Shown here piece after piece: positions 4,690 through 55,763 of a stretch of DNA of 64,000 nt (position 1 is its first letter; the number at the start of each line of letters is the position of its first letter). Position numbers and translations under genes: made by a program. The stretch spans positions 43,351,574-43,415,573 of the forward strand of contig OX578278.1 of NCBI GenBank assembly GCA_951217055.1, given 5' to 3'. The notes below the pieces were generated by a model. The model was not told where the DNA came from and did not search any database. It worked only from the letters and a program-made list of their open reading frames with translations. Source of the DNA: Gerris lacustris (Eukaryota; Arthropoda; Insecta; Hemiptera; Gerridae).

Positions 4690-5160
4690 TTCCAGGGGGG
4701 GAATGGGAGAAGGTTTTCGGAAGATCTTTTGCTATAATTTTCCGTTTCCCTGGTAGCACGGACCCCGGGGCGGATCGTTGTGATAAATGCCAGGCCGCAA
4801 GTCTTATAGGAAATAATGGTAGAGGGACCGGGTAGCGAAGGAGGGATGTAGAAACTGAGTTGCTCCGGTTTGTTGAAAGTGAGGTTACTAATATTTCGTT
4901 TTTACTCTCCGTTTTCTTTCTCTCTCCTCGACAACTAAGATTTCCTTCACGCTTTCTGCGGGAGGTAAAAGAAAATCTACTCGAAGAAAGGGAGCTTCTG
5001 TTTAAGGAGGAACTAAGAAGAAAAATGAAGAGGGAACGCTGCTCCAATTCCTTAGTGCATTGCAGTGTAGAAAAGGCCGAAAGACCTGCAAGCATTGCGG
5101 AATTGAGGCCAGCGTTTGCCCTAACACTGTCTGCTCTTCCGACCACGTCCCGGATGTTTA
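4690..5160 (+). pseudogene. GC-richer block with a Cys-rich C-terminal coding relic (uncertain)
   Basis: This block is clearly richer in G and C than its surroundings and has open frames on both strands. In one plus frame the last part (about 5050-5162) reads RKTCKHCGIEAS, then VCPNTVCSSDH, then a stop. That is a C-x2-C...C-x4-C-x3-H spacing like the zinc-knuckle tails of some transposases (piggyBac-type proteins are one possibility). An in-frame stop lies about 40 codons upstream, so this is either one short exon or a broken gene. The longest plus frame (132 codons from 4860) and the opposite-strand frame (154 codons) resemble nothing I know. I do not assign a function; coding status is unproven. 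Confidence 0.25.

Positions 5161-14603: not shown

Positions 14604-14654
<51 letters not shown>
14603..14654. repeat. (CA)n-(TA)n microsatellite at palindrome left edge
   Basis: A CA run turns into a TA run that ends exactly where the palindrome's terminal sequence AGTAGAG begins. The opposite end of the palindrome also lies against a TA run. Confidence 0.95.
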
Positions 14655-14655
<1 letters not shown>

Positions 14656-15316
14656 GTAGAGATAAAAAGGGGCACCTGGCTCAATCGCTAATGTCCACCT
14701 AAAACAAGGTCAATGACCGGCCCCTCTCGTTCGTATACTACCCCATGTTGCCTCTGCTTTTCCAAGGTCACCCCCCCCCCCCCACGAATTCTGTCTCAGA
14801 GTCGAATTCTGCCTCAGAGTCGAATACTGCCTCCAAATTGAGTCGGATTTGAAATGAAATGAAATCAAGGTTTTTTTCTCTTTTTTTTTTTGATAGAGCC
14901 CCACACTCGCTCTATCATGTGATGACCAACCATTTATTTGTCACCTCCATTGTTTCCCACCCAATAAGTGAAATTAAACTCTACAAATGTAGTTGGGTTT
15001 GCGGGACGCTATGCCGCGCCAGGGACCCTACATTCGTTAAGTTATTATATTGTAAAAGCAAGTTGAATATGTGTCTACAAATGTTGTTCGGCTTACGGGA
15101 CGCTATGCCACGCCAGGGACCTATTACATTCGTAGAAACATTTTTTTTTTTTTTTTTTTTTTACAAATATCAATTTCCATCCATACAAGTTATGCTTGCT
15201 TAAATTAAACACCATATTTTAAAAACTTTTTATAGCAGTACTAAGACAAGTGAAGCAATACAAATTGATAGGAAAAATAATTTTGACTAAAAATATTAAA
15301 TGTGTTTATTTATTAA

Positions 15317-15628
15317 TTAATATAAAATAGTGCATTCATTGTAACCATGTGCTTTTGTTGAAATTCCATCGCTCATGATAATTCTCTTGTCATCGAACGG
15401 AGAAAGAGAAACTTTATTTACTAGGTATGATTGCAAATCATGGTCCTTGGATCTGATTACATTCATTTTGGTAAAAATAGGTTCTTCATACAAACATCTG
15501 TTTTTTGTTTTTAACTTATTCATTTCAATTAAAAACTGTTCCCGGTCAATGTTTTGTAGTTGAGTTTTAACAATTTTTAATTCAAAAACCTGTTCCCGGT
15601 TACATATACCACACGCACACACACACAT
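15317..15628 (-). pseudogene. C-terminal tail resembling protein-primed DNA polymerase B (left copy)
   Basis: This is a 103-codon frame ending in a stop. Its second half reads MNVIRSKDHDLQ, then NKVSLSPFDDKR, then IIMSDGISTKAHGY. The 'IRS..H', 'NK..LS..DDKR' and 'DGI.T.A.G' spacing matches what I recall of the extreme C-terminus of DNA polymerase B proteins from Polinton/Maverick elements and their viral relatives. The palm and exonuclease motifs are absent, since the frame opens only about 25 codons upstream of this tail, so it is a fragment. It reads outward, and its stop lies about 0.66 kb from the palindrome terminus. The family assignment is from memory and unverified. Confidence 0.5.
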
Positions 15629-16589
15629 ACATATGGAGCCAACCCAAATTTGGAACCAGATATCATTAAATAGGATATTTTAATTTGAATTTGAAAATTG
15701 ACCCGCGCAAAATTAAAGAATAATTATTATAAATTATTCAATAATAAATAAATAAATTTAAGTTTATTGTTATAAATTTTTCAGGTTCGCATATTTATAT
15801 TTAACCAGAGTGATCACGCTGTGGTTTTATTCTTAACTTAGATTCCAACACCTAAAAAATTACTCACACATGATTTACAAACAAATTCCCAGACTATTTA
15901 ATATTACCTGTATTATAAAACAAGTATGCCTGTATATATGTGTTTGTACATGTGGTGTAAATTTATTTCTGACTTGACATATGTTTAAAACAAAAGATGC
16001 TTAATGTAATAGTCATTCCCGTAATAATTCTAACAAAGTAGTCCACAATTATAAAATGTAACATAAAGTAGTACATATTTTAATCAGTTTAATCAACTAC
16101 ATAGTAAATTATCCTAAATATTAATTTTACCGAGGGTTTTGAGTATTCAATTTTTAGATGTCTCCTTTGAGATTACTTAAAAATATATTTTTAACAGTTT
16201 TATATACACGCTCCGGTTTACTTAGTCGTAACTCATTATAAACTTTTCCTTATAATTATATTTTATTGTGTTTACAATAAAATCTCGTACTACTTTAAAC
16301 AATAAAATACAAAACAGATTGAGAAATATTACTACACCCAACTAATCAATATATAAAACCCTATCTAGATAGATATTATACAAAAGATTTGTTCTTTTAT
16401 GTATTGTTTTTTAGGTGGCATTCTTATTAAAAATATCCACATGGTAAGTTATTAGTAATATACACATGTAATATATATAGAACACTAGTTTTATACATCT
16501 ATATTATTTGTTTTCTTGTCTGTTGGACAACAGGTTTTAAAATACATGTATATCTATTAAACCAAAAACAATATTCTTAAATTTACCCG

Positions 16590-16680
16590 CCTAATTCAAT
16601 ACCACTTAACTCCAACGCCTCTTAACCCAATATTTCTTAACTCTAATACCTCCTAACCCAATATTCCTAATTGTGTCTGT
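16590..16680. repeat. Degenerate ~30-bp tandem repeat (mirrored at 25,420-25,505)
   Basis: Three imperfect units built on CTTAACYC..CTCTTAACCCAATATT follow each other, in both arms at mirror positions. Non-coding. Confidence 0.65.
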
Positions 16681-17749
16681 AATTAAATGTATGTGTCTGT
16701 GCGTGGGTGTATATATTAGTTAAACAACACATACAACCCTAATACAAATTAGTTAAAGAATCCTGCATATAAAAAAATCAAACATATCTATTTAACATAG
16801 AATAGTTGGATGATTTATTTGATTAAATTATTATTATTTTAAAATCAATTGAATCCCATTATACTTTACATACTAAATAAGTCAGCTGATCTGTTGGCTG
16901 AAAATGGCCAACAAATATAAACAAGAGATACAAAATTAAATATTACAAAAATAAAATGTAGAACTATTTTATAATTATTCAATATATCCCATTGGTAAAC
17001 TAGTTTTTGTTGTATTATTCGTCTGAAATATGTAGATGGTAGATCTTATAGTATATATTTATAATTTGTTTAACCATACCTCCATAATACTAGTAAAATG
17101 CACAATTATACACAGAATTTTTAGAGTCCAGTGATTGTAATGTTTCCATGCAATTTATATCTGGTATTCAATGTTTATATAATAGAGTTTACTTCTTCTT
17201 GACACAGACTTAGATATTAATGCCATGTGATGGCTCCCTCCAAAAACTAAACTCGTAACTCACTTGATAAAAAAATGTTTGTAATCCAAATATACAATCT
17301 TTTGATTCATAAGGTTGCAAACAGTGTACAAAATAGATATATTTTTAAAGTAAATTTGAGGTAATAGAAAAATTTTAACATGTGTTAGGGTCATTGACCT
17401 TGGTTATAAATTCTTAAACCCGTTGTTTTGTAGTAATAATTTATACATTAATATTACAATTTAGTTCTTAAACAGCTACACTACTCCATATGTCATTTTA
17501 TTGTGTTTAAATGCAAGCAAAATATATTAACCTCCATTGCAGCGCTTATTAGAAAAACTTACTAAATGAAGGACTAGTTCTCCAAATTTTGGACGAAGAA
17601 ATTTAGATTCCGATACAATACACCTGTATCGAACCCATACACATGTATACTGTACGAACATGTTTTTTTCTATAGTTATATTTTATAGATGAATGAATCA
17701 GTGTCTGTATACATGAGGGTTAAACGCTCAGGGCCATAATATGGAAGCA

Positions 17750-18030
17750 TGACATCATAATGGCAGTTGTACATCAATTGCTTAGAAACCTCCCAATGGC
17801 GATTTACACCCCCCAGCCACCCCTAATATATGGATTAGTGGCCTGCACGTTTACGCCCCCAATGTAGATATCAGTCCTGTTATTGGATGTTTTTTGACAA
17901 TGGCGATTTAATTACGCCCCCTATTTTGCAAATGTTGTCTTCGTCAGCCCACCTCCAATGGCGATATCAGTTATATTATTGGTTGAGACGATTTTTTATT
18001 TTACTTGGCAATGGCCAATAAAATCATCCA
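17750..18030. repeat. AATGGCGAT-bearing degenerate tandem module (mirrored at 24,065-24,345)
   Basis: The word AATGGCGAT recurs near 17,796, 17,900 and 17,958, with a related CAATGGCCAAT-type word near 18,009. Recurring companions are GCCCCC-rich stretches and ATTATTGG-like words. The spacing is roughly 50-100 bp and the units are degenerate. It could be a regulatory array or an old minisatellite. The mirror copy has the same words reverse complemented. Confidence 0.6.
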
Positions 18031-18939
18031 TCCCTAACATAAGAAAATATATATAAGAAATATGGGGTTGATCAACCCCTTGCAAGTCCGCTTTATTAAA
18101 TGATAAAATAAACAAGTTGTATATAAATAATTAGTTTATTTCCTATACTGCTAATGCCTTAGTAATGTTTTTGTAAATGTTACTCAAAAGATTAAATTTA
18201 TATCAGAATATTGACATTAAAAAAAAAAAAAAAGGATAATTTACATGTCTAGACGGCAGGTATATAATTATAGCAGCTGAAGCTTGAAAGCGGTTGACCT
18301 TGGCCGAGCTGTAGAACGGGCTATCCTCCAAATAAACCGCGGAATCTAATTACTTTTAATGCATGTAACTTAATATTTCTTAAAACGCTCACCTTTGTAC
18401 ACTTTAACATTATTATACGGTATACAAGGATATCTCCATGTGGTTGTACTTAAAATTCTAAACTAAAAATTAATGAATTACCATTATATAAAAAGTCTTA
18501 TCGCAGGGTTTCAATTCTCAGACAAAATACACTTATTTTTAAAAGCTTAAAAAACGATAATTTAAGTATAGTTCAATAATAAAACACTTATTAATATAAT
18601 AGTTATATTATAAAACTATAATTTTAGAAAAATAAATAAATAAATAAACAACGAGAGAGCGACCAATATAATATTAGGGGTAAAATAAATACAACCAAAC
18701 AAAAGATAATTATTTGCAGGGTTGTCAATAGTTTATAATATGTATGTTGTTTGATTATGTATATATTACAAAGACTGAAACAGCACATGAGAGAACAATA
18801 AATGATATAATTTCCGCACTTTTCGAGTTCTAGTAGCACGCTTCTATATTTATATAGCAACACTGTAGTAATAATTGCATTATTTCAACTCAGACTACAC
18901 TGTCAATGATTTTAAATTAAATTTTGATGGCAAAGAAAA

Positions 18940-19225
18940 TGCCTAACCAGGGTCTAGGAGGAGCCTGGAGATAGAACTCCTTCTAGTCGAAGTCTCCCGC
19001 TTTGTTAACACAGTAGTGCTGCAATGGGAGGCAGGACAATCCGTACACCTCCTATCCCAACACTAAAGCCTCTTGAGCCAACTAGGCTGGGAGAGTCCTT
19101 TCACTGAGTATTGACACCCAGTAAGCGAAACTCCCGCTTGCAGGCGTATTTATTCTGTTTCCCCCAGAGAGGAGCATGCGCATTGTAATATCAAGGTCAA
19201 AAGACAGAGGAAATTGTCGTATAGT
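18940..19225. other. GC-richer unique block inside left arm (mirrored at 22,870-23,160)
   Basis: This is noticeably less AT-rich than its surroundings. Complementary short words are present (GGAGCCTGGAGATAGAACTCC, and AGTAAGCGAAACTCCCGCTT). No open frame or known RNA was recognised. It may be a promoter or structured RNA of the element. Confidence 0.4.
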
Positions 19226-19519
19226 TATGTAATCAAGATCATAATTGAAACATCACCCACACAAATTGCAATACATGATCACTCATTCAGAATTAGTATG
19301 TCTGTGGTTTACTCACTTTGCAGACAAACCCTACAAAATTCAGCGTGTTCAAAGAATAAAAAAGAAACTTGATTTGAATTTCTATGATTATCAGAATAGA
19401 ATCTACGGTTATTATATTAGAAAAGTGTACACATATATGCAAATTTTCATTAAGAGGAGAATTTTTTACTATTCAAAGCTTAGTCAGTCAGTATCGTCCA
19501 TATGTTAGGATTCCTAAGG

Positions 19520-20640
19520 ACATAAAAAGGCCAATATCTTGGAAACGGATAGAGATATCGAAAAAATAACAAAATTTCGATAAGCCACATTACTTTTTAA
19601 AGCTCAATCATTTAAGACCCCACACGAATTTATGGGGGGGGGGGGGGAAGGGGGATGTCAGGGGGTAATAAAAACTTGAGGCTTATACACACTTGAAAGA
19701 AAAATATGGCTCTATTTTCAATATTAATATCCCATAATCCAATGATTTACTTTAAAATTGATCAAAATTCGTATTTTAACCAATATTTCCCTTCTAAGGG
19801 CATAAAAGGGCATGTATCTCGGAAACGGATAGAGATATCGAAAAAATAACAAAATTTCGATAAGCACTTCGTGCCAATCGAGCCCACATTACTTTTTAAA
19901 GCTCAATCATTTAAGACCCCACACAAATTTATGGGGGGGGGGGGGAGATGGATGTCAGGGGGGTAATAAAAACTTGAGGCTTATGCACACTTGAAAGAAT
20001 AATATGACTCTATTTTCAATATTAATATCCCATAATCCAATGATTTACTTTAAAATTGATCAAAATTCGTATTTTAACCAATATTATTTCCCTTCTAAGG
20101 GCATAAAAGGGCATGTATCTCGGAAACGGATAGAGATATCGAAAAAATAACAAAATTTCGATAAGCACTACGTGCCAATCGAGCCCACATTATTTTTTAA
20201 AGCTCAATCATTTAAGACCCCACACAAATTTATGGGGGGGGGGGGTTGTCAGAGGGGTGATAAAATACTCGGAACGGACAGAGATATCGAAAAAATAACA
20301 AAATTTTGTGGGGTCGAGCCCCAATTATGTTTGGAAGCTGAATTATTTACCACCCACTCGATTTTTTTATGGGGGGGGGGGATTTACCAAATTTCGAAGA
20401 TATCATGCTATTTTGCCCATGGCTTGCGCTATTTAAGTCCGATTTCTCTTTAAGTCTCATTTCAAGACCCATTATCCTTAAAAAATTAACATTTTACGAG
20501 TTATACTCTTGGAACGAGGGGGGGGGGGGGGGAGAAACCAAATATTGACTTTTGACCCTACGAACTGCACATTTAAGATAAATTGGGCAGTTTCACGAGC
20601 TATTTTACCCATTTCCTACCGATTTCGTCTATTACACAGA
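19520..20640. repeat. G-tract tandem array, left arm (~300-bp unit)
   Basis: Each unit contains GGAAACGGATAGAGATATCG, AACAAAATTTCGATAAGC, a CCCACATTA...CCCCACAC stretch, a run of roughly 10-17 G after AATTTATG, and the words AACTTGAGGCTTAT and CCCATAATCCAATG. About two and a half good units are followed by more diverged units toward the centre (20,270-20,640). Confidence 0.9.
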
Positions 20641-20882
20641 ATTTCCCCATTCTAGTCTACAATTTTTTTTAACAAATTCCCAATTATAAGGCTATAAATC
20701 CCAATGAATCGCACATATCTACGCGATTTATGTCCGATTTCTCTCATTTCAACACCCATTTTCCCTAGTGATGACCCCTTTAGGGCGTCTTTCAGTCTTA
20801 TTTTTGCCATTTTGGCCCCACAACCGGGCCCGGGCCCCACGCCCCACCGCTAGCGCCCTGCGCCCCCCGTTGTCGCCTTGCG

Positions 20883-20916
20883 CAAACTATAAATTGTAAC
20901 TTTGTGTAAGCGGAAT
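20883..20916. other. Loop at the centre of the giant palindrome
   Basis: These 34 bases have no inverted partner and separate two perfectly complementary GC-rich inner ends (GTTGTCGCCTTGCG and its reverse complement). The loop shows no internal fold that I can see. A short single-stranded loop like this is expected from snap-back synthesis, and also from fold-back library artefacts. Confidence 0.9.
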
Positions 20917-21149
20917 CGCAAGGCGACAACGGGGGGGGCGCAGGGCGCTAGCGGTGGGGCGTGGGGGTCCCGGGCCCGGTTGTGGGGCCAAATGGCAAAA
21001 AATAAGACTGAAAGACGCCCTAAAGGGGTCATCACTAGGAAAATGGGTGTTGAAATGAGAGAAATCGGACATAAATCGCGTAGATATGTGCGATTCATTG
21101 GGATTTATAGCCTTATAATTGGGAATTTGTTAAAAAAAATTGTAGACTA

Positions 21150-22580
21150 GAATGGGGAAATTCTGTGTAATAGACGAAATCGGTAGGAAATGGGGTAAAA
21201 TAGCTCGTGAAACTGCCCAATTTATCTTAAATGTGCAGTTCGTAGGGTCAAAAGTCAATATTTGGTTTCTCCCCCCCCCCACCCCCTCGTTCCAAGAGTA
21301 TAACTCGTAAAATGTTAATTTTTTAAGGATAATGGGTCTTGAAATGAGACTTAAAGAGAAATCGGACTTAAATAGCGCAAGCCATGGGTAAAATAGCATG
21401 ATATCTTCGAAATTTGGTAAATCCCCCCCCCCCATAAAAAAATCGAGTGGGTGTAAATAATTCAGCTTCCAAACATAATTGGGGCTCGACCCCACAAAAT
21501 TTTGTTATTTTTTCGATATCTCTGTCCGTTCCGAGTATTTTATCACCCCTCTGACAACCCCCCCCCCCATAAATTTGTGTGGGGTCTTAAATGATTGAGC
21601 TTTAAAAAATAATGTGGGCTCGATTGGCACGTAGTGCTTATCGAAATTTTGTTATTTTTTCGATATCTCTATCCGTTTCCGAGATACATGCCCTTTTATG
21701 CCCTTAGAAGGGAAATAATATTGGTTAAAATACGAATTTTGATCAATTTTAAAGTAAATCATTGGATTATGGGATATTAATATTGAAAATAGAGTCATAT
21801 TATTCTTTCAAGTGTGCATAAGCCTCAAGTTTTTATTACCCCCCTGACATCCATCTCCCCCCCCCCCCATAAATTTGTGTGGGGTCTTAAATGATTGAGC
21901 TTTAAAAAGTAATGTGGGCTCGATTGGCACGAAGTGCTTATCGAAATTTTGTTATTTTTTCGATATCTCTATCCGTTTCCGAGATACATGCCCTTTTATG
22001 CCCTTAGAAGGGAAATATTGGTTAAAATACGAATTTTGATCAATTTTAAAGTAAATCATTGGATTATGGGATATTAATATTGAAAATAGAGCCATATTTT
22101 TCTTTCAAGTGTGTATAAGCCTCAAGTTTTTATTACCCCCCTGACATCCCCCTTCCCCCCCCCCCCCCATAAATTTGTGTGGGGTCTTAAATGATTGAGC
22201 TTTAAAAAGTAATGTGGGCTCGATTGGCACGAAGTGCTTATCGAAATTTTGTTATTTTTTCGATATCTCTATCCGTTTCCGAGATACATGCCCTTTTATG
22301 CCCTTGGGAAATATTGGTTAAAATACGAATTTTGATCAATTTTAAAGTAAATCATTGGATTATGAGATATTAATATTGAAAATAGAGCCATATTTTTCTT
22401 TCAAGTGTGTATAAGCCTCAAGTTTTTATTACCCCCTGACATCCCCCTTCCCCCCCCCCCCCCATAAATTCGTGTGGGGTCTTAAATGATTGAGCTTTAA
22501 AAAGTAATGTGGCTTATCGAAATTTTGTTATTTTTTCGATATCTCTATCCGTTTCCAAGATATTGGCCTTTTTATGTCCT
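21150..22580. repeat. C-tract tandem array, right arm, one unit longer
   Basis: This is the reverse complement of the left-arm array. The runs of C before ATAAATTTGTGTGG lie near 21,560, 21,860, 22,160 and 22,450, against three equivalent runs in the left arm. The extra unit explains the ~300-bp shift in mirror coordinates. The diverged units next to the centre are kept in both arms. Confidence 0.9.
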
Positions 22581-25500
22581 TAGGAATCCTAACATATGGA
22601 CGATACTGACTGACTAAGCTTTGAATAGTAAAAAATTCTCCTCTTAATGAAAATTTGCATATATGTGTACACTTTTCTAATATAATAACCGTAGATTCTA
22701 TTCTGATAATCATAGAAATTCAAATCAAGTTTCTTTTTTATTCTTTGAACACGCTGAATTTTGTAGGGTTTGTCTGCAAAGTGAGTAAACCACAGACATA
22801 CTAATTCTGAATGAGTGATCATGTATTGCAATTTGTGTGGGTGATGTTTCAATTATGATCTTGATTACATAACTATACGACAATTTCCTCTGTCTTTTGA
22901 CCTTGATATTACAATGCGCATGCTCCTCTCTGGGGGAAACAGAATAAATACGCCTGCAAGCGGGAGTTTCGCTTACTGGGTGTCAATACTCAGTGAAAGG
23001 ACTCTCCCAGCCTAGTTGGCTCAAGAGGCTTTAGTGTTGGGATAGGAGGTGTACGGATTGTCCTGCCTCCCATTGCAGCACTACTGTGTTAACAAAGCGG
23101 GAGACTTCGACTAGAAGGAGTTCTATCTCCAGGCTCCTCCTAGACCCTGGTTAGGCATTTTCTTTGCCATCAAAATTTAATTTAAAATCATTGACAGTGT
23201 AGTCTGAGTTGAAATAATGCAATTATTACTACAGTGTTGCTATATAAATATAGAAGCGTGCTACTAGAACTCGAAAAGTGCGGAAATTATATCATTTATT
23301 GTTCTCTCATGTGCTGTTTCAGTCTTTGTAATATATACATAATCAAACAACATACATATTATAAACTATTGACAACCCTGCAAATAATTATCTTTTGTTT
23401 GGTTGTATTTATTTTACCCCTAATATTATATTGGTCGCTCTCTCGTTGTTTATTTATTTATTTATTTTTCTAAAATTATAGTTTTATAATATAACTATTA
23501 TATTAATAAGTGTTTTATTATTGAACTATACTTAAATTATCGTTTTTTAAGCTTTTAAAAATAAGTGTATTTTGTCTGAGAATTGAAACCCTGCGATAAG
23601 ACTTTTTATATAATGGTAATTCATTAATTTTTAGTTTAGAATTTTAAGTACAACCACATGGAGATATCCTTGTATACCGTATAATAATGTTAAAGTGTAC
23701 AAAGGTGAGCGTTTTAAGAAATATTAAGTTACATGCATTAAAAGTAATTAGATTCCGCGGTTTATTTGGAGGATAGCCCGTTCTACAGCTCGGCCAAGGT
23801 CAACCGCTTTCAAGCTTCAGCTGCTATAATTATATACCTGCCGTCTAGACATGTAAATTATCCTTTTTTTTTTTTTTTAATGTCAATATTCTGATATAAA
23901 TTTAATCTTTTGAGTAACATTTACAAAAACATTACTAAGGCATTAGCAGTATAGGAAATAAACTAATTATTTATATACAACTTGTTTATTTTATCATTTA
24001 ATAAAGCGGACTTGCAAGGGGTTGATCAACCCCATATTTCTTATATATATTTTCTTATGTTAGGGATGGATGATTTTATTGGCCATTGCCAAGTAAAATA
24101 AAAAATCGTCTCAACCAATAATATAACTGATATCGCCATTGGAGGTGGGCTGACGAAGACAACATTTGCAAAATAGGGGGCGTAATTAAATCGCCATTGT
24201 CAAAAAACATCCAATAACAGGACTGATATCTACATTGGGGGCGTAAACGTGCAGGCCACTAATCCATATATTAGGGGTGGCTGGGGGGTGTAAATCGCCA
24301 TTGGGAGGTTTCTAAGCAATTGATGTACAACTGCCATTATGATGTCATGCTTCCATATTATGGCCCTGAGCGTTTAACCCTCATGTATACAGACACTGAT
24401 TCATTCATCTATAAAATATAACTATAGAAAAAAACATGTTCGTACAGTATACATGTGTATGGGTTCGATACAGGTGTATTGTATCGGAATCTAAATTTCT
24501 TCGTCCAAAATTTGGAGAACTAGTCCTTCATTTAGTAAGTTTTTCTAATAAGCGCTGCAATGGAGGTTAATATATTTTGCTTGCATTTAAACACAATAAA
24601 ATGACATATGGAGTAGTGTAGCTGTTTAAGAACTAAATTGTAATATTAATGTATAAATTATTACTACAAAACAACGGGTTTAAGAATTTATAACCAAGGT
24701 CAATGACCCTAACACATGTTAAAATTTTTCTATTACCTCAAATTTACTTTAAAAATATATCTATTTTGTACACTGTTTGCAACCTTATGAATCAAAAGAT
24801 TGTATATTTGGATTACAAACATTTTTTTATCAAGTGAGTTACGAGTTTAGTTTTTGGAGGGAGCCATCACATGGCATTAATATCTAAGTCTGTGTCAAGA
24901 AGAAGTAAACTCTATTATATAAACATTGAATACCAGATATAAATTGCATGGAAACATTACAATCACTGGACTCTAAAAATTCTGTGTATAATTGTGCATT
25001 TTACTAGTATTATGGAGGTATGGTTAAACAAATTATAAATATATACTATAAGATCTACCATCTACATATTTCAGACGAATAATACAACAAAAACTAGTTT
25101 ACCAATGGGATATATTGAATAATTATAAAATAGTTCTACATTTTATTTTTGTAATATTTAATTTTGTATCTCTTGTTTATATTTGTTGGCCATTTTCAGC
25201 CAACAGATCAGCTGACTTATTTAGTATGTAAAGTATAATGGGATTCAATTGATTTTAAAATAATAATAATTTAATCAAATAAATCATCCAACTATTCTAT
25301 GTTAAATAGATATGTTTGATTTTTTTATATGCAGGATTCTTTAACTAATTTGTATTAGGGTTGTATGTGTTGTTTAACTAATATATACACCCACGCACAG
25401 ACACATACATTTAATTACAGACACAATTAGGAATATTGGGTTAGGAGGTATTAGAGTTAAGAAATATTGGGTTAAGAGGCGTTGGAGTTAAGTGGTATTG

Positions 25501-26468
25501 AATTAGGCGGGTAAATTTAAGAATATTGTTTTTGGTTTAATAGATATACATGTATTTTAAAACCTGTTGTCCAACAGACAAGAAAACAAATAATATAGAT
25601 GTATAAAACTAGTGTTCTATATATATTACATGTGTATATTACTAATAACTTACCATGTGGATATTTTTAATAAGAATGCCACCTAAAAAACAATACATAA
25701 AAGAACAAATCTTTTGTATAATATCTATCTAGATAGGGTTTTATATATTGATTAGTTGGGTGTAGTAATATTTCTCAATCTGTTTTGTATTTTATTGTTT
25801 AAAGTAGTACGAGATTTTATTGTAAACACAATAAAATATAATTATAAGGAAAAGTTTATAATGAGTTACGACTAAGTAAACCGGAGCGTGTATATAAAAC
25901 TGTTAAAAATATATTTTTAAGTAATCTCAAAGGAGACATCTAAAAATTGAATACTCAAAACCCTCGGTAAAATTAATATTTAGGATAATTTACTATGTAG
26001 TTGATTAAACTGATTAAAATATGTACTACTTTATGTTACATTTTATAATTGTGGACTACTTTGTTAGAATTATTACGGGAATGACTATTACATTAAGCAT
26101 CTTTTGTTTTAAACATATGTCAAGTCAGAAATAAATTTACACCACATGTACAAACACATATATACAGGCATACTTGTTTTATAATACAGGTAATATTAAA
26201 TAGTCTGGGAATTTGTTTGTAAATCATGTGTGAGTAATTTTTTAGGTGTTGGAATCTAAGTTAAGAATAAAACCACAGCGTGATCACTCTGGTTAAATAT
26301 AAATATGCGAACCTGAAAAATTTATAACAATAAACTTAAATTTATTTATTTATTATTGAATAATTTATAATAATTATTCTTTAATTTTGCGCGGGTCAAT
26401 TTTCAAATTCAAATTAAAATATCCTATTTAATGATATCTGGTTCCAAATTTGGGTTGGCTCCATATGT

Positions 26469-26780
26469 ATGTGTGTGTGTGCGTGTGGTATATGTAACCG
26501 GGAACAGGTTTTTGAATTAAAAATTGTTAAAACTCAACTACAAAACATTGACCGGGAACAGTTTTTAATTGAAATGAATAAGTTAAAAACAAAAAACAGA
26601 TGTTTGTATGAAGAACCTATTTTTACCAAAATGAATGTAATCAGATCCAAGGACCATGATTTGCAATCATACCTAGTAAATAAAGTTTCTCTTTCTCCGT
26701 TCGATGACAAGAGAATTATCATGAGCGATGGAATTTCAACAAAAGCACATGGTTACAATGAATGCACTATTTTATATTAA
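26469..26780 (+). pseudogene. C-terminal tail resembling protein-primed DNA polymerase B (right copy)
   Basis: The protein is identical to that of the minus-strand frame at 15,317-15,628, at the mirror position in the opposite arm, also reading outward toward the palindrome end. The absence of any amino-acid difference shows that the arms are very young, recently homogenised or technically duplicated. The first codons lie in a (TG)n run, so the start is not a credible native start; the fragment is 5'-truncated. Confidence 0.5.
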
Positions 26781-27439
26781 TTAATAAATAAACACATTTA
26801 ATATTTTTAGTCAAAATTATTTTTCCTATCAATTTGTATTGCTTCACTTGTCTTAGTACTGCTATAAAAAGTTTTTAAAATATGGTGTTTAATTTAAGCA
26901 AGCATAACTTGTATGGATGGAAATTGATATTTGTAAAAAAAAAAAAAATAAAAAAATGTTTCTACGAATGTAATAGGTCCCTGGCGTGGCATAGCGTCCC
27001 GTAAGCCGAACAACATTTGTAGACACATATTCAACTTGCTTTTACAATATAATAACTTAACGAATGTAGGGTCCCTGGCGCGGCATAGCGTCCCGCAAAC
27101 CCAACTACATTTGTAGAGTTTAATTTCACTTATTGGGTGGGAAACAATGGAGGTGACAAATAAATGGTTGGTCATCACATGATAGAGCGAGTGTGGGGCT
27201 CTATCAAAAAAAAAAAGAGAAAAAAACCTTGATTTCATTTCATTTCAAATCCGACTCAATTTGGAGGCAGTATTCGACTCTGAGGCAGAATTCGACTCTG
27301 AGACAGAATTCGTGGGGGGGGGGGGTGACCTTGGAAAAGCAGAGGCAACATGGGGTAGTATACGAACGAGAGGGGCCGGTCATTGACCTTGTTTTAGGTG
27401 GACATTAGCGATTGAGCCAGGTGCCCCTTTTTATCTCTA

Positions 27440-27440
<1 letters not shown>

Positions 27441-27509
<69 letters not shown>
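27441..27509. repeat. (TA)n microsatellite at palindrome right edge
   Basis: About 69 bp of uninterrupted TA follow directly after the palindrome terminus CTCTACT. Outside it the sequence (TTCTTTTCTCTCTAATGC) has no counterpart on the left flank. Confidence 0.95.
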
Positions 27510-38390: not shown

Positions 38391-39916
38391 AATTTAAATC
38401 AAATTATAATTATTACTAACACTGGGAGACAGGCAGAGAAAAATAGACTCCAGCGCCGGGACTTGAACCACGGGCCTCTACATTTCCAGTGTAGCGCTCT
38501 TTCCAACTAAGCTACGCAGGAGAATGATTTTTCTCTGCCGTAACCGATAACTATTCCCGAATCCAAGCTTTCAATATTTCTACAAGTTTATATAGCAAGT
38601 CAATATTTCTGACATTAGAACTAGACCGAGAATTAGGTATTTAGGTAGTGATCAATTATCGAATCTACAGTATTGGTCTGACGAAAAAAGTCTTAAAAAC
38701 TAAATTAAACATAGATGAATTTTATTAATTACCTACTTGTTCCGGAGTATGTTTAAAAATATTATCAATATTGTTATTAATATCCAAATGATGATGATTT
38801 GTTCAATATGTTATAGACATATTGAGGATTACTGGCATTTGCTAACCGTAACATTAACGTCTTAAACGTAGGTTTTAAAGCAGCTTTCATAAAGACAGTG
38901 GCTTTAAATGTTAAGTCCGATGTTCGCGTAACGTGGTGGTGGAGTTAAAGCAACGACAAACTGGGATTTCGACTGTTTGGCCTGTTTTCATTTCTGTGCT
39001 ATAAACTTTTGCATTATCTCTAGAGGCTTTACTTTCTCTTTTGTTCGATTCTCTCGAGCTGTAAACAATAAGATTAGGAGAGTCTAATATTAGACCTATT
39101 GCGTAATTATATAGCAGCTTGGTGGGCTGTTATTTGAAGGAACTTTAATTAGGCGTCACTTTACTATGGGAGCAGATTGTTGGACTTTTGTCAGGTCACA
39201 GTTTGATTTTGCTTGGAGCTTTCCAACTCTGAAGAGTGGGGATCCTGGCAAATCCCTTCAAACTCTAGGATTAAATCGCTCGGCCAAATCGCTTAAATAT
39301 TTACAAAGGATACTTACTTCTGTCTACTCCAAACTATGCCTAACAGCTTAGCCTATTTCTCTTGTTGACTTGATAAATTATTCATTTCATTTCTTGATTT
39401 ATCTTCAATTTAACTTTTCCACGTCATGTCTATAAATTCGTTTTATCTAAAACTTCATTTCTAGTTCATATTCTTATTTCTTGGTAAAGTTAAACATTTG
39501 ATGCCTTGGAATTTATCTTAAACTTTTTATTTAAATCTTTGAGCTTACCTTTTCCTTGCTTCATTTCTGAAGTGTGAAATTAGATGCAAAAATTACATTT
39601 TCCGTCTGAAAATTTTATAAATTTCATTTTTTTCCCAGTGTTATTTTTAAGTAAAATGTTACTAAGTTAAATTTTGTTGAATTTATTGAGATATTTTTCT
39701 CTTTTTCAAATTATCTTAAATAAACATCTAGAGTTATTTATTATTTATTTTATTTTTTCATTATGGTAAGTAGAATTACAAGACTTAAAAGCAGAATAAC
39801 TATTCTGTTCGATAAATCTCAAGAATTTTTATTTTAACCTAAAACTCCAGCGCAGGGTGTCTATTTTTCTCTGTCTGTTTCCCGTAATTAATAATAAGTA
39901 TAATTTGATTTAAATT
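38391..39916. mobile_element. 1.5-kb segment bounded by ~66-bp inverted repeats
   Basis: Left 38,391-38,456 (AATTTAAATCAAATTATAAT...GCAGAGAAAAATAGAC...CCAGCGC) is matched inverted by right 39,843-39,916 (GCGC..GGTGTCTATTTTTCTCTG...ATAATTTGATTTAAATT). The inside has no recognised protein; a 61-codon frame at 39,166-39,351 has no family resemblance. It could be a TIR element or two inverted copies of one repeat. Confidence 0.55.
38448..38521 (-). tRNA. tRNA-like sequence (pseudo-tRNA or SINE head), anticodon-position GGA
   Basis: On the minus strand 74 bases fold as a cloverleaf. The acceptor TCCTGCG pairs with CGCTGGA at six of seven positions. The D-arm is GCTT...GAGC, the anticodon stem CTACA/TGTAG has loop CTGGAAA (GGA in the anticodon position, T33 kept), and a 5-base variable loop and a TTCAAGT T-loop follow. 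The T-stem has two mismatches. GGA would mean serine, but the long variable arm of serine tRNAs is missing, so a functional tRNA-Ser is unlikely. A 13-bp perfect inverted repeat (GGCAGAGAAAAAT / ATTTTTCTCTGCC) flanks it. Best read as a tRNA-derived repeat. Confidence 0.5.
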
Positions 39917-42488: not shown

Positions 42489-43070
42489 TAGTCCACAGGC
42501 CACCATAAGAAGTGAGTCGCTGATTGATAAAGTTTTCTTACCTTATGGAATCGCTTATTTATGCCTTGTCCACCGATGAATTGGGTATATGGCAACTAGG
42601 TGCTGGGCCATTTATTTTTTGTTGACATACCAAACTTGCCCTTCTGCGGGAACATTGAAAAGAGATAGATAAAGTTTTGATTTTCACAGGATCGTTTAAT
42701 TAAATTATTTCAAAAATAGTGGTAAAGGTGGCCACCGATACGAGTGGGCCGTTTTCTTTTCAACGTCCCCGCAGAGCGATATGTTTGGGGCGGTGGCCAC
42801 CCCAAACGGCCCACTCTTATCGGTGGCCACGTGTGCCACTGTTTTTTAAACAATTTAATTAAACGATCCTATGAAAATCAAAACTTTATCTATCTCTTTT
42901 CAATGTTCCCGCAGAATGGCAAGTTTGGCATGTCAACAAAAAAGAAATGGCTCAGCGCCCAGTTGCCATATACCCAATTCATCGGTGGACAAGGCATAAA
43001 TAATAAGATTCCATAAGGTAAGAAAACTTTATCAATCAGCGACTCACTTCTTATGGTGGCCTGTGGACTA
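42489..43070. mobile_element. Foldback element, ~580 bp, almost entirely palindromic
   Basis: The sequence folds on itself around 42,780. The outer ends TAGTCCACAGGCCACC and GGTGGCCTGTGGACTA match. Inside, GATTTTCACAGGATCGTTTA pairs with TAAACGATCCTATGAAAATC, and GGCCACCGATACGAGTGGGC with GCCCACTCTTATCGGTGGCC. The arms differ by substitutions and small indels. A TA at each edge could be the target duplication (Tc1/mariner-type MITE). No coding frame. Confidence 0.8.
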
Positions 43071-55439: not shown

Positions 55440-55763
55440 ATAAATTCATTAATTTTCTTTTATTGATTGTCCCCTTTAATATATATATTCTTATCTTTTG
55501 TGTCTTCAGGGGTTTTTTTTAAAATTAAAATTAATAAAAAAAGACAGCTAACAATTTGCTTTTTTTAATATATTAATATTTATTTGGTTATATTTCATCT
55601 CCTACTTGAGACATTTTTGAAAATGTCTCAAGTAGGAGATGAAATATAACCAAATAAATATTAATATATTAAAAAAAGCAAATTGTTAGCTGTCTTTTTT
55701 TATTAATTTTAATTTAAAAAAAAACCCCTGAAGACACAAAAGATAAGAATAAATTCATTAATA
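55440..55763. repeat. 264-bp near-perfect palindrome with 15-bp direct repeats outside
   Basis: 55,487-55,750 is symmetrical around 55,618/55,619. The arms of about 131 bp differ at only one or two bases in T/A runs, and the loop is just TG. AATAAATTCATTAAT stands on both sides (55,440-55,454 and 55,749-55,763), like a target duplication, although about 32 bp separate the left copy from the palindrome. It lies in the 3' part of the Penelope relic. Confidence 0.85.

Follow-up and report, generated by a model that had tools for sequence, protein, structure and literature searches.

A near-perfect 12.8-kb palindrome in Gerris lacustris and its probable place in a mobile-element family of Polinton/Maverick lineage

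A stretch of 64,000 nucleotides (nt) from Gerris lacustris (assembly GCA_951217055.1, contig OX578278.1, positions 43,351,574 to 43,415,573), here called the window, contains an element that is almost entirely a palindrome. The element was mapped by self-BLAST and by alignment of its two arms (Table 1). Both methods bear out the first-pass annotation of this DNA, which had described a near-perfect palindrome of 12.8 kb with arms of 6.2 and 6.5 kb and a 34-nt loop. As also stated there, both ends carry the same terminal sequence, AGTAGAGATAAAAAGGGG, each end adjoins TA repeats, and the outer flanks are unlike each other. The arm alignment recovered the real differences that had been reported between the arms, an extra array unit and substitutions. 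Over their outer 4.85 kb the arms show 1 substitution in 4,849 aligned bases, plus a single homopolymer length difference. The inner ~1.2 kb hold eleven smaller differences, mainly indels of 1-2 bases and many of them in homopolymers, and part of these may be sequencing error at the centre. Chance was rejected as the origin of the palindrome, since two 6-kb arms are too long. The reading frames of the arms are identical, as had been claimed, but they are short. The longest stop-free stretches are 120-124 amino acids (aa), and no intact gene was found in a window arm. BLAST of the arm against the remainder of the window gave weak matches alone (E 0.03-0.1).

Relatives were sought in the assembly to which the window belongs (937 Mb, 69 contigs), with loci labelled as contig:position. 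One window arm used as a query gave at least 52 matches. The search for copies with the same ends came out positive, which supports the earlier preference for a biological mobile object. Palindromes with these ends lie at C11:12.04M (arms 99.85% identical over 5,909 bp), C3:79.64M (99.98% over 6,026 bp), C5:35.70M (99.96% over 4,817 bp) and C1:98.61M (99.7% over 4,480 bp, with arrays unequal towards the centre). These four and the window were read through, from arm up to centre, including at C5:35.70M a ~4.6-kb insertion in the right arm only (C5:35703545-35708152). The insertion has the ends CACTGAGAAAAAA and TTTTTTCTCAGTG and is probably another DNA transposon. Contigs C55 and C64 each hold the centre plus one arm complete to its end, six further copies end in 200-base runs of N that were taken as gaps, and two reach a contig end before the centre. 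Among the matches listed, a 401-bp centre complete in both orientations was found 13 times at 12 places, window included; four other places (C9:584.6k, C9:585.1k, C3:13.66M and C1:144.6M) have part of it. The end of a coding relative, used as a query, gave many ends in plus/minus pairs and some unpaired, again among the matches listed. Eleven loci, window included, showed a palindromic centre together with both ends. Short copies that are palindromic only in part lie at C1:24.26M (1.45 kb) and C11:48.80M (0.7 kb). The central loop with its closing bases, 35-36 nt, was read at the window and seven other loci. It exists in two close variants among these eight loci, and the loop of the window is that of relatives bearing the gene PolB, described below. 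Because the loop is common to eight loci, the palindrome is most simply regarded as ancestral. Scans of viral contigs found no relatives.

Predicted PolB, a family-B DNA polymerase, is the only long gene found in this palindromic branch of the apparent Polinton/Maverick lineage. This polymerase lineage had gone unrecognised in the first-pass annotation. The window frame at 15320-15679 (minus strand) matches an 88-aa protein, P0001 (E 1e-7), its sole match in the protein collection. As a query, P0001 had 944 matches of similar length in that collection, itself counted. Against the genome it gave 150 listed matches, and for 93 of them the surrounding open frame is 1,100 aa or longer. The frame length is 1,232-1,235 aa for eleven of the listed matches, ten of which make up five inverted pairs, 11.8-19.3 kb apart. 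The other 82 listed frames of at least 1,100 aa served as a control, and two of them form an inverted pair (C7:64.1M). Inverted pairs of PolB frames with no family centre at the midpoint were observed at C7:64127058-64144355 and C1:23188103-23204812, and these are possibly other palindromic families.

The coding copy at C11:27.0M was sampled in pieces; it measures 13.4 kb and is palindromic at both ends and in the centre. The interval 27017701-27019599 was taken as PolB from an open frame of 1,232 aa, and a 532-aa piece of the long frame matches PF03175 (DNA_pol_B_2, E 5.6e-16). PolB appears once per arm with its C-terminus facing outward, and it is the sole long gene found. In the left arm, the 2.3 kb that separate PolB from the centre contain no frame longer than 118 aa. 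An integrase gene was not found in that 2.3-kb stretch of the single coding copy sampled. Judged by frame length only, frames for a packaging ATPase, a protease or a capsid were likewise not found in the parts of the copy read.

The window keeps two PolB fragments per arm, in the same order and orientation as in the PolB of C11:27.0M. The palm fragment at 17679..17792 carries a YxDTDS motif. At the DNA level, the window arm matches the C11:27.0M copy over part of the end region, both PolB fragments, the interior array and the centre. The segments at 15489-17678 and 17793-18783 have no match in the C11:27.0M pieces by DNA alignment. The palm fragment has no match in the protein collection, Pfam and PHROGs scans of short window pieces gave nothing above the cut-off, and PDB sequence searches were empty. 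Since its arms hold fragments of PolB and no intact gene, the window copy is a gutted derivative. In a second non-autonomous group, subfamily B, each arm has a stop-to-stop frame that contains a psq-type helix-turn-helix (PF05225, E 2e-7). Three loci have this frame at a length of 412 aa, and at C1:98.61M it is altered. It lies at L009:4543-5778 in the fetched stretches, is mirrored in L010, and is also present in L011-L016. It may be the captured DNA-binding part of a pogo-type transposase.

Insertion of the palindromes is recorded in their flanks. The 6-bp flanks match at 11 of the 15 loci examined, a count that left out copies with one readable end as well as C1:154.5M, C1:91.7M and C6:70.9M. 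Eight of the matching loci lie in unique sequence (ATTATT, GTACGG, CAATAA at C11:27.0M, TATAAA, ATCGAT, GCGGTC, AGACAG and TCTGTA), and at three, the window among them, TATATA is duplicated within TA repeats. The TATATA flanks of the window are compatible with a 6-bp duplication that is not provable inside TA repeats. The termini AGTAG...CTACT were found at 13 of the 15 loci, the right end being altered at C1:12.12M and C11:48.80M. The TA tracts highlighted by the first-pass annotation do adjoin the window element, but they are the target of this copy and of two others and not a feature of the element. TA is one among several targets of the family, and TA-specific targeting was rejected on duplications such as GCGGTC and GTACGG.

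The 6-bp repeats around the palindromes indicate that whole palindromes were inserted, a pattern not to be expected from an artefact of the library or the assembly. A fold-back library artefact or a haplotype mis-join, the caution raised earlier, is therefore very improbable. In its favour, the centres seem difficult to assemble, as judged from the copies that run into N or a contig end, and at C1:98.61M the palindrome takes in flank. Neither an artefact nor a collapsed haplotype can yield 6-bp direct repeats in unique sequence around whole palindromes, as found at other loci of the family; eight loci in unique sequence have matching 6-bp duplications and differing outer flanks. The exact common ends and the shared asymmetric loop also argue against it, as does the rarity of inverted PolB pairs outside the family frame length (2 of 82, as opposed to 10 of 11 within it, among the matches listed). 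A foldback-type or Tc1/mariner-type transposon with giant inverted repeats and TA targeting can be given hardly any credence. The tandem subrepeats in the arms would suit it, as would the TA flanks of the window and of two more loci. Drosophila foldback elements do have very long inverted repeats with tandem subrepeats, as here. The duplication produced by Tc1/mariner elements is a 2-bp TA, and those of foldback elements are 9-10 bp. The 6-bp duplications led to rejection of both types. The non-TA targets and the PolB gene of the coding copy point the same way; the family thus differs from foldback elements in duplication length and in the gene content of its relatives.

The two arms of a locus resemble each other more than they resemble the arms of other loci. 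Within subfamily B, the arms differ at 0 of 4790 positions at C11:12.04M, 0 of 4790 at C3:79.64M and 1 of 4790 at C5:35.70M, and these three loci differ from one another at 2-10 positions. The fourth locus, C1:98.61M, has 68-77 differences from the other three. Across the six arms of the first three loci, 10 of 11 substitution sites are common to both arms of a locus. At three coding copies, the outermost ~250 bp of the left end and of the right end show 0 substitutions and 2-4 gap positions within a locus; comparison across loci gave 2-5 substitutions and 4-36 gap positions. All five non-autonomous copies for which both arms were fetched, window included, have the 2.19-kb segment that interrupts PolB in both arms. 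With arms alike within loci, loci different from each other and the PolB break in both arms, one arm must have templated the other after the break. Transposition of the palindrome as a whole, with young copies whose arms have simply not diverged and no copying from arm to arm, is accordingly improbable. Most within-locus identities would fit young insertions. However, the substitutions shared by both arms in subfamily B, and the 2.19-kb segment with loss of PolB in both arms around a loop like that of PolB-bearing copies, would require independent identical events, which are not credible.

Chromosomal gene conversion is the main rival. It accepts the same mobile palindromic family and keeps the arms alike with no special hairpin step. 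Gene conversion maintains the arms of long sex-chromosome palindromes and is able to carry over indels, which counts in its favour. The arms of this family adjoin each other and are near-identical at several loci, as it would predict. Several observations are less easily accommodated. The ~4.6-kb insertion in one arm at C5:35.70M has been neither removed nor copied, and the arms of the short copies have diverged (97.0% at C1:24.26M and 97.8% at C11:48.80M), both of which count mildly against it. The arms of C1:98.61M differ at 14 positions in 4,480. Gene conversion also leaves unexplained the origin of the palindrome and its being the usual form. We regard it as unlikely, though as a serious competitor.

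Several features place the family near the virus-like Polintons, also called Mavericks. In a published account (PMC8097293), Mavericks are grouped with protein-primed replicators having jumping-back end motifs and 6-bp duplications. Intact vertebrate Mavericks are there given as 12,723-24,620 bp, with terminal repeats of 46-1,447 bp and end motifs of (AGT)2 or (AG)3. The window element falls inside this size range, and the ends of the family are close, though not exact, counterparts of the vertebrate motifs. The predicted polymerase is of the protein-primed family-B type, with PF03175 in C11:27.0M and two fragments in the window, and duplications of 6 bp are found at most loci examined. In contrast to the limited terminal repeats given there, this family is nearly all inverted repeat. 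The unique interior between limited repeats is absent at the five loci read through, and the coding-copy parts read lack integrase, ATPase, protease and capsid frames.

Other systems offer partial parallels. Protein-primed viruses such as adenovirus give rise to self-complementary defective genomes, which are palindromes of one genome end, as expected from fold-back copying. The present palindromes differ in being integrated, multi-copy and equipped with a conserved loop. Linear mitochondrial plasmids of the invertron type, such as pAL2-1, likewise are linear with large terminal inverted repeats. The long inverted repeats of pAL2-1-type plasmids are mitochondrial DNA flanks, whereas in the present family the palindrome is the element. 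Among the open-access papers searched, none was found to describe palindromic Polintons, which is not proof of novelty.

Common ends, a common hairpin and loop at many loci, 6-bp duplications, PolB and the identity of arms within loci unite these copies. The window element is probably a non-autonomous member of this palindromic family, of Polinton/Maverick lineage, copied by protein-primed fold-back and integrated in trans; we hold this with moderate confidence. The mechanism draws on published Maverick features and on the anatomy of the element. Replication would take place extrachromosomally, with a terminal protein priming strand displacement at the AGTAG ends. Being self-complementary, the displaced strand would fold back into a hairpin of ~6.5 kb that the central loop closes. 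Alternatively, the growing strand may turn at the central hairpin and copy itself. One arm would thus template both, and substitutions and large rearrangements would spread to both arms. A Polinton-type integrase, presumably supplied in trans, would insert the palindrome in its linear form and duplicate 6 bp at the target. With most of PolB lost, the window copy would require PolB in trans too. In a more specific form, the unit of heredity would be one arm plus the loop. The integrated ~13-kb palindrome would alternate with a ~6.5-kb hairpin having one protein-primed and one covalently closed end, and the second arm would be rebuilt at each round. For this replicon model we consider the case evenly balanced. 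To our knowledge, no such palindrome/hairpin cycle is known for Polintons.

A number of points weigh against protein-primed fold-back of a palindromic family. Neither an extrachromosomal form nor an integrase was found, and gene conversion on the chromosome would likewise keep the arms alike. Assembly polishing can exaggerate their likeness. For six of the eleven palindromic loci (C11:27.02M, C2:18.70M, C1:122.3M, C1:127.3M, C9:6.77M and C1:12.12M), sampling covered the ends and centre. Within subfamily A, no substitution is private to the window when it is compared with C55 and C5:4.89M, and loci other than the window yielded one arm each; the count of sites shared between arms thus comes from subfamily B alone. 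The arms of C1:98.61M differ at 26 of 4247 positions in the multiple alignment, in addition to the pairwise count given above. Its palindrome continues ~2.9 kb past the element ends into both flanks (C1:98604105-98620733) without a 6-bp duplication. A 6-bp match is also missing at C7:0.92M and C11:48.80M, making three of the 15 loci, and no duplication value was obtained at C1:12.12M because of its altered right end. The ATCGAT duplication is self-complementary and hence weaker. At C7:0.92M the ends are 4.8 kb apart and a palindromic centre is absent. The copy at C1:91.7M has two centres 7.5 kb apart (C1:91736977-91757586) with a partial open PolB frame between them, and may have arisen as a compound element or by recombination. 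An open frame of this copy at C1:91746000-91746300, upstream of the palm region of PolB, resembles C2H2-type zinc fingers by eye.

Polinton replication has largely been deduced from gene content and from relatives. Palindromic copies with a conserved loop and co-evolving arms preserve in the genome a record of the way such elements are copied, and they make fold-back, hairpin-type replication directly testable. The closer match of arms within than between copies hints at an unusual copying mode. The family suggests that near-perfect palindromes of 12-13 kb are able to spread, and to be maintained, in the genome of an animal; it may also account for a class of assembly gaps.

Table 1. Positions in the window of the palindromic element, its parts and its flanking repeats
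Feature	Position	Strand	Remarks
Whole palindromic element	14655..27441	.	12,787 bp
Left arm	14655..20882	+	6,228 bp
Right arm	20917..27441	-	6,525 bp, one extra ~300-bp array unit
Asymmetric loop	20883..20916	.	34 nt
GC-rich central hairpin	20830..20970	.	DNA fold about -75 kcal/mol
Left terminal sequence AGTAGAGATAAAAAGGGG	14655..14672	+	
Right terminal sequence AGTAGAGATAAAAAGGGG	27424..27441	-	identical to left
~300-bp tandem array, left arm	19585..20245	.	2.2 copies
~300-bp tandem array, right arm	21558..22512	.	3.2 copies
Putative 6-bp target-site duplication, left copy TATATA	14649..14654	+	within TA repeat
Putative 6-bp target-site duplication, right copy TATATA	27442..27447	+	
PolB C-terminal fragment, left arm	15393..15488	-	31/31 aa identical to C11:27.0M PolB
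2.19-kb segment interrupting PolB remnant	15489..17678	.	whole or partial in other non-autonomous copies fetched
PolB palm fragment with YxDTDS motif, left arm	17679..17792	-	36/38 aa identical to C11:27.0M PolB
~1-kb segment in place of most of PolB	17793..18783	.	subfamily A copies only
PolB palm fragment, right arm	24305..24418	+	mirror position, from arm alignment
PolB C-terminal fragment, right arm	26609..26704	+	mirror position

Outside the element, an Rfam scan of the window found nothing besides one tRNA and mir-932. The tRNA-Ser (GGA) lies on the minus strand at 38446-38522. The precursor of mir-932, which belongs to an arthropod microRNA family and thus points to a probable arthropod host, lies at 5037-5115 and scores 55.6 bits, with a gathering score of 54. 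Two more small self-inverted repeats in the window, at 42489-43070 and 55476-55761 (89% and 96.5%), are possibly short palindromic elements of other families.

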